Below are positions 5,160-17,061 of a stretch of DNA of 20,353 nt, piece after piece; positions within the stretch are counted from its first letter, which is position 1; the number at the start of each line of letters is the position of its first letter. Under the pieces are notes generated by a model that had not been told where the DNA came from, did no database searches, and saw nothing but the letters and a program-made list of their open reading frames with translations. The stretch lies in the IMG/VR virus record IMGVR_UViG_3300035681_000153, positions 1-20,353 of that record; one strand, 5' to 3'. Source of the stretch: a virus. The position numbers were made by a program, and so were the translations under genes.

Positions 5160-5615
5160 TCAATCATCGATTTCTTGATCTCTTTCCTCGGTAGATCCAA
5201 TGTTTAGAGTGAACGTAATATCGTCATCATTCTGTAAACGAGGTAGAAAGCGATCTAATACCCGCTCTGATGGTAGTACTTGCTCTTTTTCTTCAAAAAT
5301 GATCGCACCATTGCCATCAGTGCGCGTTTTCGTTTTATAAACTTCGCCACGTAATAATCGCAAAACGTATAATTTAGCAAGATCTTCACACTCTTTTAAC
5401 TGATCAAGCGCTTGTTCTGCCCTAAGCTTTACACGATCGCTTTTGGCGCTATCTATATCGTTTTTTAATTCAGGATGCGATCTTTGCCAATTATACAATG
5501 TCGCTAAACTGATACCAAGACCTTTTACAGCATCGCTATCGTTACCACCCGATTTGTAAATAGATACGATAGCGTCGTGGGTGGTTTTATTATATCGATT
5601 TCGTAATGCGGACAT
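5160..5615 (-). CDS. Terminase small subunit-like DNA-binding protein, 151 aa
   Basis: Likely recognises the packaging site and loads the large terminase. Residues about 10-45 form a helix-turn-helix (THDAIVSIYKSGGNDSDAVK then GLGISLATLYNWQRSHPEL), the common N-terminal DNA-binding element of small terminases. It is followed by a charged helical stretch (about 50-95) suited to oligomerisation and a short acidic tail ending EERDQEIDD. It is the first gene of the head operon, with AAAGGTG before the ATG and a promoter candidate just upstream. An alternative is a phage HTH regulator, but position ahead of terL favours terminase. Confidence 0.72.
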   Translation of the reverse strand: MSALRNRYNKTTHDAIVSIYKSGGNDSDAVKGLGISLATLYNWQRSHPELKNDIDSAKSDRVKLRAEQALDQLKECEDLAKLYVLRLLRGEVYKTKTRTDGNGAIIFEEKEQVLPSERVLDRFLPRLQNDDDITFTLNIGSTEERDQEIDD

Positions 5616-5646
5616 TGGAACACCTTTATTTTTAACGATCTAGTTT

Positions 5647-5674
5647 TATATACTCTAATTACGTTCGGTGTAAA
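5647..5674 (-). promoter_or_regulatory. Promoter candidate for the head operon
   Basis: On the minus strand, TTTACA (complement of 5669-5674), a 16-bp spacer and TATATA (5647-5652) form a sigma70-like promoter about 30 bp before the small terminase start codon. It faces away from the plus-strand replication promoter, which makes 5616-6410 a divergent control region. Confidence 0.5.
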
Positions 5675-5677
5675 AAA

Positions 5678-5812
5678 ATGGCGATCGCTCTTATAGAACG
5701 TACAAAAGCGATCGCTAGATCACGCGAGAGAGGAAAAAACACCACTTCTTCTGATTATATAGGTTTGGCAACCTTTTTGAGACAACTAATCGATTATTTA
5801 CGATTCGACTAA
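5678..5812 (+). CDS. Doubtful 44-aa small ORF
   Basis: ATG-to-TAA frame encoding MAIALIERTKAIARS and ending DYLRFD. It begins with a HIP1 octamer, has only GGTG as an upstream ribosome-binding signal, and overlaps the proposed minus-strand promoter. Inside it, 5721-5741 closely matches the translational leader of the diguanylate cyclase gene (CACGCGAGAG...GGAAAAAACA) but lacks a start codon after it. This suggests a decayed gene start rather than a true small gene. Confidence 0.2.
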   Translation: MAIALIERTKAIARSRERGKNTTSSDYIGLATFLRQLIDYLRFD

Positions 5813-6097
5813 TAGTACGTTGACCCACATTAAGCTCTCAGTCCATTCAGAATCGATTTTAAGACGGGTTAATAGATGTATTGGTATATTCTATCGTTAA
5901 TTTGTTCTAGAGCCTTCTAGAGGCTTTATAGACGACTTTTTTATTTTTTATATTTATAGGAATCTTATTGATCGCGATCGTTCTTTTTATATTATATGAT
6001 TTTTATTATTTATATACATCGACCCTCTTTTCATAGATGCCGTGTGTGCGTCTGCTATCGGTCTTTAATTATTGATCTGAATATCTGATCATCAATC

Positions 6098-6158
6098 TGT
6101 TTCAAAAAGGCCGAGGATGTTTTGTCTTATCTATTAAAGGTGCGGCCTTTTTGAAACA
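6098..6158 (+). repeat. Hairpin unit 1 (16-bp perfect stem, 29-nt loop)
   Basis: TGTTTCAAAAAGGCCG (6098-6113) pairs perfectly with 6143-6158. The 29-nt loop (6114-6142) is identical to that of unit 2. It is preceded by CTGATCATCAATCTGT (6085-6100), which recurs before unit 2. The A-tract/GGCCG...CGGCC/T-tract core resembles a bidirectional intrinsic terminator, but the long loop and extended stem are unusual for one. Confidence 0.9.
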
Positions 6159-6176
6159 AAACTCTGATCATCAATC

Positions 6177-6237
6177 TGTCCCGAAAAGGCCGAGGATGTT
6201 TTGTCTTATCTATTAAAGGTGCGGCCTTTTCGGGACA
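6177..6237 (+). repeat. Hairpin unit 2 (16-bp perfect stem, compensated changes)
   Basis: TGTCCCGAAAAGGCCG (6177-6192) pairs perfectly with 6222-6237. It is a tandem copy of unit 1 at a 79-bp period. The only differences from unit 1 are three stem positions, T to C, T to C and A to G on the left arm, each matched by the complementary change on the right arm. The loop (6193-6221) and leader are unchanged. This is direct evidence that pairing is maintained. Confidence 0.9.
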
Positions 6238-6355
6238 AAACTCTAAAAGCATTGATATATAAGGAATAGAGAGCGATCAACGCGACGGCATCTATGAAAA
6301 GAGGGTCAAAAAATAATAAAAATATACACAATACCACTCATTTTCTACTTTTTGA

Positions 6356-6384
6356 TTGACATCGAAGGTTATTTCGTCTATTAT
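6356..6384 (+). promoter_or_regulatory. Sigma70-type promoter of the replication operon
   Basis: A consensus TTGACA (6356-6361), a 17-bp spacer and TATTAT (6379-6384) lie about 27 bp before the first plus-strand gene. CTACTTTTTGATT (6345-6357) overlaps the -35 box and resembles boxes at other plus-strand promoters in the window. The predicted leader is only about 20 nt and has no clear ribosome binding site. Confidence 0.75.
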
Positions 6385-6410
6385 ATTTATGTACACATCT
6401 GAAAACTCAA

Positions 6411-6596
6411 ATGGCACTAAGAAAACGCGATAGAAACACTAACACCTTCAGAATGAACATAATGATCTCTTATAAAGATCGCGAAACATTAGAAGAGTTA
6501 GCAGAAATAACTGGATATTCTTTATCGGCTACGATTGGAATGGCGATCGAAGAATTGGCACTGCGTTTAGAGTCGGGAGACTTTGATAATGACTAA
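6411..6596 (+). CDS. Ribbon-helix-helix DNA-binding protein, 61 aa
   Basis: Small CopG/Arc-type protein. A basic N-terminal tail (ALRKRDRN) is followed by a beta strand TFRMNIMIS (residues 12-20) and two helices, KDRETLEELAEITG and SLSATIGMAIEELALRLE. Dimers of this fold insert the paired strand into the DNA major groove. The stop codon overlaps the start of the replication gene by 8 nt, so the two are translationally coupled. That is the arrangement of CopG-type copy-number repressors ahead of plasmid rep genes. It likely binds near its own promoter, possibly at the palindromes upstream. The repressor role is inference; the fold is well supported. Confidence 0.8.
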   Translation: MALRKRDRNTNTFRMNIMISYKDRETLEELAEITGYSLSATIGMAIEELALRLESGDFDND

Positions 6597-9078
6597 CAAG
6601 ATTGTAATTTCGCTAGACGATCGCAAACTGACTAATAAACCAGAGAGAGGAACTGAAGAGGGTGATATCTTAATCGGATCTATCATCAACTCTTTAAGGT
6701 CTACTGAAGTGACGATCGCAGAACTAGCTCAATTAATCATCCAAGGTCAAAGCTGGGCACCTTCAGTATGGAAGGGTCATAAAAGTAACGACAACTTTCT
6801 TTTTTCCCGTTTGTTAGCTATGGATTTCGATAACAAAAAATTAGTTGTTAGTCCTGAACAAGTCAAAGATCGTTTAGAAGAATACGGTATCGATTGGAAA
6901 TTCTTTCATACATCTTTTAGCGATACTCCTGAAACAAGGAAATTTAGGGTAGTTTTTGATTCGGGTAGAGATCTAAACAAAGAAGAAACCCTAAACTATC
7001 TGAATCGATTGCACGTCTTATTTCCTGAAGCTGACGTTTCTTCAAACCGTCTCACCCAATTTTATTATGGTGGTCGTGAGCTATTGTTTCAGAATTTCAA
7101 TTCAGCTCCTATCAATTACGATCTCTTAAAAGTAGCTGCTGATGTGGAAGCGGCTAAAAATTGTTCTGATGAGTCGGCAAGAAAGATTATCGATCGCAAG
7201 ATAAAAGATAAGGAACTTCCTTTTACAATTGGGCAGAAAGCGTCCTATGATGTAATTCGAGATCCTGACTTTGATAGATTGTGTGATCGTGTCGCTGTAA
7301 TCGCTTCTATTAGGGGTGGAGCAATTGAAGCTACTGAAAAGTATCGAGTTGGCGATCGTTTAGAATATCCAGATCTTTTAACTGCTTTGACTAATCTTTT
7401 ACCTTTTAACGGTGGATTAAAACAGGCGCAGATATGGATGAACGAAGATGGTCGTTATACTCAAAAGCACTATCGTATTTTCAATTCGCTTCGCAAGCAC
7501 GTTGATTACTATCCTACGAATCTAGATGCTAGTCCTTTTGAGTCTGATCACAAATATGTCAACAGCGTGTTTGCCTATTCAAATCAGGGTGTAGTTAAGC
7601 AAGAAAATGTTTTATTATACGCTTATACCTTACAAAAAGGAGAGAGTGAGATGGAAGCGGCTATCGATGAAGCATTGAACGATAACAAACCTGGTGTAGT
7701 AGTACTAAAGTTTCCTACAGGCATTGGCAAGTCTAGAAAATTGGCTTCTGTTTTTCACGCCGCCAAGAAACCATACTACTACGGATTTCTCACTCACGCC
7801 CTCTTGAACGCCTTTCTAAAAGACCTCGGGGGGAAAGATACCATCAATGCCGTAATCACCCCTCAGCAGCCTTCTGGCGTCCCTGATTACATCGACCATC
7901 TTTATAACATTGGGGCCATAGTCAAGGCTCAAGACGAGATCAAAAAACTGAAAAATAAAACTACCGATCCTGAGTTAAAGCAAGCTCTGATTGAGTACGA
8001 GTCTATGAACACGGCTGCTTACGGAGAAACTCGTCTACCTGTTATTGGTACGCATCGTAAAGGGCTTAGCAAGAATGCTCGTACTAATGAGTTTTCTTTT
8101 ACCCATTGCAAGACAATGATCTTCGACGAAGACATTATGGCCGAGTTGATTCCTACTTACAGTGTCACAAGATCGGATTTGAATGCTCTTTCTGATATAA
8201 TCAAGATGTTTGACAACGAAGAATTGATGACTAAGGTTTTACCTGTTATCAACTACTATCTCGATTTTATTTCCAGTGGTTTGCCTGCCATTATGGATAT
8301 GCCTGTACTTAATCTAGGGGAAACTCGTCAAACGTTAACTAAACTGGTGAGTACTTGGGCTAAAAAGTTTACAGGTAACATCTTGGAACTATTTCGAGTT
8401 CGCGGTAAGTTTTGTCTTGATGGTGTCGAACACGGCAAGATTAATTTTGTTACCAAGAAAGATTACCCTCGCGATCGCAAGATTGTTATTCTCTCGGCCA
8501 CTGCTGATGAGAACCTTTATCGACATTTGATTCCTGAGGTTCAATTTGTCGATCTATCTAACGTAGTCAACAAAGGAAAAATTGTTCAAGATCATAGTAA
8601 ATCTTGTTCGCGAACTTCTTTGGAGAATAACAAAACCGTTGAGTACGTTCGTCAGAAATTAGAAGAGTATGGCAATCCTCCTGTTATTACTTTTAAGAAG
8701 ATGAAGGATCTTTTTGTGAACTCTCACCCAGACATTCATTTTGGGAACGTTTGTGGGTCCAACACGCTCAAAGGGGGAGATATTGCTGTAGTTGGTACAC
8801 CGCATCCTCCTCAGTCCTTAGTAGAGCTTACAGCATCCGTTCTAGAGCTAGAGGTTCCAGATGAGCCTATGATGGTTGTACAAGAGATTTTTCGTAATGG
8901 TTTCAGATTTATGTTCCGCACTTACGAAAGCTTAAACCTTCAGTCCATTCACTTTGCTCTAATCGAACGGGAACTAATTCAAGCTGTTGGACGAGCAAGA
9001 ATACTTCGTTACGACGTTAACGTGTACCTTTTTTCTAACTATCCTTTACCAGATTATAGTGATGCCGTTATACTATAA
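6589..9078 (+). CDS. Primase-helicase replication protein (AEP-like plus SF2 helicase), 829 aa
   Basis: Likely the replication initiator/primase-helicase of the element. The N-terminal third resembles an archaeo-eukaryotic primase: LLAMDFDN (D79, D81, a D-x-D metal motif), FFHTSFSDTPETRKFRVVFD (residues 105-124) and a DVSSNRLTQFYYGG segment. The C-terminal half is a superfamily 2 helicase: motif I PTGIGKS ending near residue 382, motif II FDEDI (DED near 513-515), motif III SAT (636-638) and motif VI QAVGRAR (798-804). The start is the ATG at 6589 with GGGAG 10 nt upstream; a TTG at 6583 is less likely. It is coupled to a ribbon-helix-helix gene and followed by a terminator. The layout resembles rep proteins of cyanobacterial plasmids and phages. 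The helicase part is secure, the primase part probable. Confidence 0.82.
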   Translation: MTNKIVISLDDRKLTNKPERGTEEGDILIGSIINSLRSTEVTIAELAQLIIQGQSWAPSVWKGHKSNDNFLFSRLLAMDFDNKKLVVSPEQVKDRLEEYGIDWKFFHTSFSDTPETRKFRVVFDSGRDLNKEETLNYLNRLHVLFPEADVSSNRLTQFYYGGRELLFQNFNSAPINYDLLKVAADVEAAKNCSDESARKIIDRKIKDKELPFTIGQKASYDVIRDPDFDRLCDRVAVIASIRGGAIEATEKYRVGDRLEYPDLLTALTNLLPFNGGLKQAQIWMNEDGRYTQKHYRIFNSLRKHVDYYPTNLDASPFESDHKYVNSVFAYSNQGVVKQENVLLYAYTLQKGESEMEAAIDEALNDNKPGVVVLKFPTGIGKSRKLASVFHAAKKPYYYGFLTHALLNAFLKDLGGKDTINAVITPQQPSGVPDYIDHLYNIGAIVKAQDEIKKLKNKTTDPELKQALIEYESMNTAAYGETRLPVIGTHRKGLSKNARTNEFSFTHCKTMIFDEDIMAELIPTYSVTRSDLNALSDIIKMFDNEELMTKVLPVINYYLDFISSGLPAIMDMPVLNLGETRQTLTKLVSTWAKKFTGNILELFRVRGKFCLDGVEHGKINFVTKKDYPRDRKIVILSATADENLYRHLIPEVQFVDLSNVVNKGKIVQDHSKSCSRTSLENNKTVEYVRQKLEEYGNPPVITFKKMKDLFVNSHPDIHFGNVCGSNTLKGGDIAVVGTPHPPQSLVELTASVLELEVPDEPMMVVQEIFRNGFRFMFRTYESLNLQSIHFALIERELIQAVGRARILRYDVNVYLFSNYPLPDYSDAVIL

Positions 9079-10754: not shown

Positions 10755-10807
10755 TTCCTATTTGTATAGATAAAAATAGGAAAATAGTTTATCTATACAA
10801 ATAGGAA
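10755..10807 (+). promoter_or_regulatory. 20-bp perfect inverted repeat covering a ribosome binding site
   Basis: Positions 10755-10774 are the exact reverse complement of 10788-10807, with a 13-nt spacer. The right arm contains ATAGGAA, the ribosome binding site of the gene starting at 10819. Folding of the leader would hide it. As DNA the palindrome could also be an operator, since TAGATA/TATAGA in the left arm is a possible -10 box. Confidence 0.85.
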
Positions 10808-11860: not shown

Positions 11861-12075
11861 TTATTGCTTTGGCCCTAGTCATCTTGGCTGGGGCCTCGGC
11901 AACCGTTTTGTCGCGATGTTCACAAAATCCCCAAAAATACGACACTGTGACTACTGTGAATACCGTGACAGAGGAGCAAAAACCGCCTCATCACAGTAGT
12001 TTAACCCGTCACAGTAGTCACAGTAGTTTAACCCGTCACAGTAGTCCAAACAATTTTCACAACGAGGAAAAAACA
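11861..12075. repeat. Phased 9-bp repeat array (CTGTGA then TCACAG)
   Basis: CTGTGA at 11945 and 11954 and CCGTGA at 11963 are spaced by exactly 9 bp. TCACAG follows at 11991, 12009, 12018 and 12036, all multiples of 9. TCACAGTAG and TTTAACCCG alternate as 9-bp units. The stretch is open in the frame of the next gene (encoding a hydrophobic segment, then HSSLTRHSS-type repeats), but a strong internal ribosome binding site at 12064 marks the likely gene start at 12076. Confidence 0.8.
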
Positions 12076-15819: not shown

Positions 15820-16197
15820 GTGACGAACCAAACGAAACTCAATCTAGTTAAGCGCCAATTTGTCCAATATATTTTGGGTAAATCGCTTTTAGAAGTAGGA
15901 AAAGAGTTTGGTGTCTCTAAAGAAACCGTTCGACTAAACTTTCTTAAATATATCCACCCGAATTACCAGCAGCTAAAAAAGTCTGGTGTCAGCGCTGAGG
16001 TCAAACGATATTTATTATCGAAATATCAGAGCGATCGCAACAAAGACTTAATTAGAAATTGGTTCTTCGATAATCTCCACGATATTTTAGAGGTGGATAA
16101 TAACGATGTGTCCTTCTTTTCCGAAAATAAACTTAACCAATTAACCCGTGCTGAAACGGGAAAATATTCTGACCTTTTAACTTGGCCACAGTTTTGA
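15820..16197 (+). CDS. HTH DNA-binding protein, 125 aa
   Basis: GTG start with AACGAGG 9 nt upstream. Residues about 8-45 (RQFVQYILGKSLLEVGKEFG then VSKETVRLNFLKYI) form a sigma-70 region 4/LuxR-like helix-turn-helix, with the VSKETVR recognition helix typical of site-specific regulators. The remaining 80 residues are helical and charged (YQSDRNKDLIRNWFFDNLHD) without a known domain. The gene follows a direct-repeat operator candidate and probably autoregulates. It lies upstream of the diguanylate cyclase gene in the same direction with about 30 bp between, so the two may form an operon. It may be a late-gene activator or alternative sigma-like factor; this is a guess from size and fold. Confidence 0.65.
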   Translation: MTNQTKLNLVKRQFVQYILGKSLLEVGKEFGVSKETVRLNFLKYIHPNYQQLKKSGVSAEVKRYLLSKYQSDRNKDLIRNWFFDNLHDILEVDNNDVSFFSENKLNQLTRAETGKYSDLLTWPQF

Positions 16198-16226
16198 AAA
16201 ATTACACACGCGAGAGGAAAAAAACA

Positions 16227-16787
16227 ATGGTTACCGCGATCAAGAATAATAAAATAGAAATCGTATCGTTTCTTAAACGTAAGATCTCTAGACTCGAAGA
16301 AGAGAACGCTAATCTACGGAAGTTAGTTTTTGTGGACTGCTTAACGGGCTGCGGCAATCGACGCTTCTTTGATCAGTATATTAAAGAGCAACTGAATATT
16401 GCCGATCGCACTAATAGTACCGCTTCTCTTTTAATTATCGATATCGACTTCTTCAAAAAGTACAACGATAGCCACGGACACCAAGCTGGCGATCGTCTAC
16501 TTTCGGCTTTGGGTAACGGTCTAGTTCGTTCTATCGAAAGAGCGGGCGATAAAGTTTTTCGTTTAGGCGGCGAAGAGTTTGCGATCGTACTTCCTAGTAC
16601 GAGGAAAGAGCAAACGCAACGGATCGTAAGCTTCGTTAACGAGGTGGCAAGACAATTGAATATAACCGTATCTATTGGAGTGTCGGATACCAACGAAACT
16701 CCTAATATCGAAGAGCTTTATACGATAGCGGATAATCGCCTCTATCGAGCTAAAGCTTCTGGCCGCGATCAAGCAGTATTCAATTAA
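16227..16787 (+). CDS. Diguanylate cyclase (GGDEF domain), 186 aa
   Basis: Makes the second messenger c-di-GMP from two GTP. The GGDEF domain is complete: DCLTGCGNRRFF (37-48), the metal-binding DIDFFKKYND (72-81), the active-site GGEEF (114-118), and the closing ADNRLYRAKASGRDQ (168-182). The inhibitory site RAGD (105-108) sits five residues before GGEEF, so product feedback should work. The only N-terminal addition is a short coiled coil (about 15-33, FLKRKISRLEEENANLRKL), which would allow dimerisation; no sensor domain or membrane span is present. The ATG at 16227 follows GAGAGGAAA; an earlier TTG overlaps the previous gene and is unlikely. Its presence in a phage or plasmid genome suggests that the element manipulates host c-di-GMP signalling. 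Confidence 0.93.
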   Translation: MVTAIKNNKIEIVSFLKRKISRLEEENANLRKLVFVDCLTGCGNRRFFDQYIKEQLNIADRTNSTASLLIIDIDFFKKYNDSHGHQAGDRLLSALGNGLVRSIERAGDKVFRLGGEEFAIVLPSTRKEQTQRIVSFVNEVARQLNITVSIGVSDTNETPNIEELYTIADNRLYRAKASGRDQAVFN

Positions 16788-16982: not shown

Positions 16983-17010
16983 CCCCTTCCAGAATCGCCT
17001 ACAACGAACG

Positions 17011-17052
17011 AAAAACCCCCTTCAGGTACAATATAACCTGAAGGGGGTTTTT
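17011..17052. terminator. Strong bidirectional terminator between converging operons
   Basis: AAAAACCCCCTTCAGGT (17011-17027) is the exact reverse complement of 17036-17052 with an 8-nt loop. The A-tract and T-tract on both sides allow termination of the plus-strand operon and of the minus-strand tail operon. Confidence 0.95.
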
Positions 17053-17061
17053 CTTAAATAT

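Follow-up and report, generated by a model that had tools for sequence, protein, structure and literature searches.

The window, by which we mean the whole 20,353-nt stretch of DNA analysed here, is a virus record from IMG/VR whose genes include those for terminase and tail. It carries 15 copies of the HIP1 sequence (GCGATCGC) against ~0.3 expected from length alone. HIP1 is a cyanobacterial mark, and the copies point to a cyanobacterium as the host; the virus is itself probably cyanobacterial. The element studied here sits between a divergent gene for the terminase small subunit (5160–5615, minus strand; E 3e-4) and an operon that comprises a 61-aa ORF and a replication gene (Rep), i.e. in the divergent region upstream of the replication gene, where the earlier note had sited it. 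The small ORF (6411–6596, plus strand) encodes a probable ribbon-helix-helix regulator and overlaps the start of the Rep gene (6583–9078, plus strand), whose 831-aa product has an archaeo-eukaryotic-primase-like N-terminus and a superfamily 2 helicase-like C-terminus. The strongest promoter, TTGACA-17-TATTAT (6356–6384, plus strand; 11/12), belongs to this operon. As it lies downstream of the element, Rep mRNA started there does not have the element in its leader. On the other side, a block GATCGCGATC...TATTAT (5970–5995, plus strand) forms a weak promoter-like site before the element. Elsewhere, the phage record encodes a GGDEF (diguanylate cyclase) domain protein (16182–16787, E 1e-39).

The element is bounded by a perfect 23-bp inverted repeat with a left arm GACCCTCTTTTCATAGATGCCGT (6021–6043, plus strand), a right arm ACGGCATCTATGAAAAGAGGGTC (6285–6307, plus strand) and 241 nt between. 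The outer pairing runs on imperfectly to 5995–6333, giving 49-nt arms (78%) that include a perfect 13-bp block (5999–6011/6311–6323). Inside stand two tandem units on the plus strand, spaced 79 nt. Unit 1 (6084–6162) comprises a leader (TCTGATCATCAATC), a hairpin (6098–6158) with a 16-bp stem (TGTTTCAAAAAGGCCG, 6098–6113/6143–6158) and a 29-nt loop, and an AAAC tail; unit 2 (6163–6241) has the same leader, a hairpin (6177–6237) with the stem TGTCCCGAAAAGGCCG (6177–6192/6222–6237) and an identical 29-nt loop. Each stem has 16/16 Watson-Crick pairs. The left arms nevertheless differ between units 1 and 2 at 6101/6180 (T/C), 6102/6181 (T/C) and 6104/6183 (A/G), and all three differences are matched on the right arm (6155/6234, 6154/6233 and 6152/6231). 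Direct reading, a repeat finder and string checks thus bear out the tandem compensated hairpins inside a 23-bp palindrome that had been described from the letters of the window. Between unit 2 and the right arm lies a further motif, AAAAGCATTGATATATAAGG (6245–6264, plus strand), that unrelated plasmids and phages also have in their origin regions. Outside the element, CCTTTTTGAGACAA at 5772–5785 is similar to CCTTTTTGAAACAA, the first hairpin's variant stem; it is possibly the donor of that stem, or the likeness is due to chance.

We do not regard the element as a chance structure, because block-shuffled versions of the window gave no inverted repeat of at least 15 bp and because its fold lies 12–14 SD below shuffles. 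A 351-nt stretch folded as RNA gave –130 kcal/mol (z –12.7), the other strand gave z –14.2 and single-stranded DNA gave z –13.7; no shuffle folded as well in any of the three cases. By a combinatorial estimate, once one arm has three changes, a further three falling at random in the rest of the unit would compensate every one of them with a probability of ~5e-7. An Rfam scan of 5600–6600 found no family at gathering score and gave sub-threshold microRNA-like matches alone, as with any long hairpin, in keeping with the statement in the earlier note that no named family of this form was known to it. A blastn search of the element region against phages and plasmids gave no match. Neither end of the element has a terminator-like site (a stem followed by a T run), such sites being found in the scan only at 5681–5723, and the cumulative GC skew has only a local minimum at the element. 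Three more perfect inverted repeats of 16–20 bp with short spacers occur in the window (10755–10807, 11944–12024 and 17010–17053).

The N-terminal 230 residues of Rep match phrog_25531 (E 7e-22), a family of unknown function; around the catalytic motif they also give a weak alignment to a VapE-type phage primase. The motif LLAMDFD is hhhDhD-like, and rep2 has STFSHT. In the C-terminal half the best match is to ResIII/DEAD (for L053, E 6e-4, short of the Pfam cut-off), and the motifs SATADE and QAVGRAR look like those of superfamily 2. AlphaFold models were poor (pLDDT 41 for Rep and 56 for the N-terminal part), and a fold search with them was uninformative, returning common ferredoxin-like matches only (up to Z 7.2) with no primase among the matches listed. 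Our working inference, for the primase part from a motif match and a weak profile hit, is that Rep is a putative primase-helicase. The counterpart of the small ORF in L053 has a weak match to RelB (E 0.0076), and the product is probably a ribbon-helix-helix regulator.

To explore the wider distribution, homologues were gathered by exact loop and arm patterns and by a Rep search in viral contigs. These comprise near-identical phages (L005, L006 and L009) and more distant ones (L004/L008, L011, L012 and L017). Five Rep alleles were obtained: those of the window, G005 (75%), G003/G004 (60%) and G002 (29%), and a second copy in G004 (36%). In 5/5 alleles, from four phage types, a composite fold-back element immediately precedes promoter, small ORF and Rep. 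The small ORF, of 60–70 aa, is directly 5′ of Rep in the window, L004, L017, L011 and the second G004 copy; promoter counterparts stand 25–37 nt before it in the latter four, and the Rep promoter is 3′ of the element in 4/4 loci examined. The elements fall into three classes without sequence relationship (the window class, L011_B and G004 94,049–94,247) that have one layout in common: a long outer repeat, an inner hairpin of 15–18 bp, promoter, small ORF and Rep. No sequence is common to the window element and either L011_B or the second G004 element; the outer repeats of these two have perfect cores of 19 and 24 bp, and the inner hairpin is 15 bp in each. The record L017/G004 (139,448 nt; L063–L069) has 102-nt terminal repeats and two complete modules of element, small ORF and Rep (14.4–17.7 kb and 91.1–94.3 kb), with Rep proteins that are 37% identical. 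We conclude that the element belongs to Rep and not to the terminase, because the flanking genes on its other side vary between records; the terminase small subunit adjoins it in the window's phage only, and a packaging site was rejected on this ground. The recurrence of the architecture before Rep in unrelated sequences suggests selection on shape.

At the limits of this distribution, a search with the most divergent Rep allele matched only itself. Two Staphylococcus plasmids (L099 2751–4917 and L100 2750–4821) encode a distant Rep relative with a small ORF before it, and have no inverted repeat of at least 15 bp upstream. The arms of the element were found nowhere else in eight records, this locus excepted. 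The outer-arm pattern had four single matches in genome contigs, all in unrelated MAGs and read as chance, and a match in L007, inside a coding stretch, was likewise set aside. Arrays of the palindrome GGCACCTcttttAGGTGCC, possibly partition or iteron sites, lie 5′ of the element in L004 (430–860), L011 (1150–1600) and L012, and there are none in the window.

Five distinct homologous elements could be aligned. In an alignment of seven sequences only, some of them close, there were ten doubly changed pairs and 17 doubly changed cells; 0/500 column shuffles reached either this number of cells or the covariation score. In slid controls the paired fraction dropped from 90% to 35–51%, and RNAalifold reported 11 pairs with changes on both sides. 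The outer arms also show a compensated change among homologues (T/A to A/T). Across the five near-perfect inner stems, 83/84 pairs are Watson-Crick, with one G-G mismatch and no G-U. The stem form of unit 2 is also present in L005, L006 and, in part, L004 and L011. A block like GATCGCGATC...TATTAT precedes 5/6 elements inspected, the sequence-unrelated L011 element included, and a TATAAT block stands at the matching place before other elements. The number of hairpins varies: L006 has two with identical stems and slightly different loops, whilst L005 has a single hairpin in a contig that ends in the right arm, where assembly collapse is possible. Three sister-phage contigs end inside the element (L005 at 7077, L006 at 1 and L009 at 9107), as short-read assemblies can be expected to break at repeats, and hairpin numbers are perhaps under-counted. 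A linear-genome hairpin telomere was rejected, as the contigs of the window and L006 run through the hairpins.

The earlier note had reasoned that duplicates normally drift without compensation, and hence that either pairing is selected or each hairpin is kept from pairing with its neighbour. The second idea is refuted by the identical stems of L006 and the single hairpin of L005. As to the first, the first hairpin of the window carries three transitions, plus their complements, relative to the common CCCG stem, and the loop of L011_A aligns to that of the window only when reversed (score 13 versus –2.75 forward; p 1.5e-4 by letter shuffles). Homogenisation of arms together with inversion of the spacer, both of which occur among these relatives, is the footprint of replication template switching (PMC8604942, PMC8794818), a process that has been proposed both to give rise to compensated RNA hairpins and to preserve them (PMC8794818). 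Template switching makes compensated stems in one step, and comparison of the duplicates alone is therefore no proof of selected pairing; with the inverted L011 loop as its signature, the argument from compensation by itself is not supported. The likeness to the published cases lies in the compensated stem changes, perfect arms and inverted spacer. Those cases were inferred for RNA genes and coding DNA, with spacers shorter than the 26–29 nt seen here, whereas ours lie in a phage replication region (PMC8794818, PMC8604942).

The motif at 6245–6264 has the core TTGATATATAAGG. AAAAGCATTGATATATAAGG and its variants occur 1–5 times in window-class and L011 loci, and the TTGATATATAAGG motif recurs in unrelated viral contigs. 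It is found near primase-helicase genes and short repeats in the L010/L016 group (with GGTACACAT) and in L020/L024 (with GGTAGCA), and in L078 it adjoins an iteron array next to repM. A plasmid search with a 31-nt query containing the core returned 256 records, nearly all intergenic among the matches listed; Vibrio plasmids were also among the matches. Overall, Bacillota, Gammaproteobacteria and cyanobacteria all have plasmids or phages in which TTGATATATAAGG recurs in intergenic DNA, commonly 5′ of a rep gene, with other matches near integrases. The motif is often flanked by complementary bases (AAAGC..GCTTT or AAACC..GGTTT; window 6245–6264, L010–L028 and L070–L098). In 9/9 small plasmids with an annotated rep the motif is ~140–960 nt upstream of that gene (RepM, two; RepL, three; S. 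thermophilus rep, three; L. reuteri rep, one), although these nine represent ~4 independent types picked because they matched, and so give an association and not a test. The second G004 element has no TTGATATATAAGG motif within the 2.5 kb searched, and the motif is therefore not essential. A literature search for the motif found no relevant paper naming or describing TTGATATATAAGG.

We regard the feature as real and as probably a fold-back origin. Of the three options raised before (an origin fold-back, a copy-number RNA and a non-autonomous element), the first has the best fit, given that the element and the Rep module go together in 5/5 Rep alleles. On balance we favour the reading that the element is the replication origin, or its single-strand initiation region, used by the adjacent Rep. 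For the steps from fold to origin activity, including Rep binding, primer synthesis and the part played by the regulator, we infer the following scheme. Rep, expressed from one operon together with a predicted small autoregulator, would open AT-rich DNA. The exposed strands could then fold back via the outer repeat, presenting one or two inner hairpins and TTGATATATAAGG, which together would be a landmark for Rep loading and primer synthesis. Were recognition mainly by shape, the sequence would be free to drift, and polymerase template switching inside the fold-back, by copying arm onto arm, would keep that drift compensated; it would also flip loops and add or remove hairpin units. A wider proposal, which we advance tentatively and consider doubtful, is that these elements are a new class of shape-recognised nested fold-back origins re-perfected by template switching, and that TTGATATATAAGG is a common initiation module acquired by unrelated plasmids and phages of several phyla.

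The main rival to the origin reading is a transcribed structured RNA, since a promoter-like block precedes most elements. A multi-branched RNA of ~300 nt, starting at ~5968–5995 or made from the other strand, could control Rep level or copy number; the very stable fold on both strands and the TTGATC-16-TATTAT site before the window element are consistent with this. The regulator suggested in the earlier note is thus possible, if unlikely, but not as part of the Rep mRNA leader, outside which the element lies. Inner stems with next to no mismatch and no G-U pair are what correction acting on the DNA itself would give, the ends of the element have no terminator-like site, and an inverted loop would scramble loop-specific RNA contacts. 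Protein binding without origin function offers another explanation, in which the element is a centromere for partition or an operator for autoregulation by the small ORF. The product of the adjacent ORF probably belongs to the ribbon-helix-helix class, which binds repeats, and the window has tandem units. However, operators of this class are usually short repeats that overlap the promoter, and the element is ~50 nt before the promoter without overlapping it; the hairpin sequences also differ wholly between classes, and units number one to two. We consider this improbable, and less probable than the palindrome without function discussed next.

A palindrome without selected function, kept by template-switch repair, would have duplication and compensation as mere by-products. 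The loop inversion, hairpin gain and loss, and arm homogenisation would all follow from such repair (PMC8604942, PMC8794818). Against it, one architecture recurs in three unrelated classes at the same place before five Rep alleles, and no other repeat in these records has its arms; we give this explanation little weight. The non-autonomous inverted-repeat element proposed earlier, a MITE-like transposable element, would account for terminal inverted repeats around a non-coding body and for the two related elements side by side in L004. There is no target-site duplication, though, and arms that are confined to this locus in the eight records, covary and are coupled to Rep are so contrary to it that we find it scarcely credible.

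If the element is an origin, as we favour, the locus provides a candidate phage replicon whose layout is a minimal one of origin plus operon. It is also a natural system that displays compensated stem changes, gain and loss of units, and loop inversion together at a single defined site, and it makes testable whether origin stems owe their compensation to selected pairing or to the replication machinery. It further warns that covariation alone is no proof of a functional RNA.

The TTGATA in the hairpin loop resembles the stem-loop nick sites of rolling-circle replicons (pC194/phiX174 type). In contrast to such replicons, Rep here has a primase-like N-terminus, with no recognised rolling-circle one. 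A second comparison is with RSF1010, where the ssi hairpins (ssiA and ssiB) are primase start sites in a plasmid origin (PMC4434180). Each RSF1010 site is 40 nt long, either strand has one, and GTG follows the hairpin; here, by contrast, the window hairpins have GTG at their loop end and nowhere else, L004_2 and L011_A lack it, and no iteron array was recognised. A further likeness is to pRN1, a Sulfolobus plasmid with the orf56/orf904 replicon, in which an operon encoding a repressor and a prim-pol/helicase depends on a 100-nt stem-loop whose shape, and not its sequence, is conserved; phages with a pRN1-like layout have been predicted (PMC4234260). Both systems have an operon of a small regulator (a probable one here) and a Rep (here a putative primase-helicase), and a stem-loop structure that is kept whilst its sequence diverges, and that is tied to Rep, here across five alleles and three classes. 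However, the pRN1 stem-loop is downstream of rep and the elements here are upstream in all cases; they are 200–400 nt, nested and sometimes with tandem hairpins, and the pRN1 helicase is of superfamily 3 where Rep reads as superfamily 2. We have not filed the element as a pRN1 member because of this upstream, nested and larger form and the different helicase class. Should it prove to be an origin, it would extend pRN1-type hairpin origins to cyanobacterial phages with a different Rep architecture.
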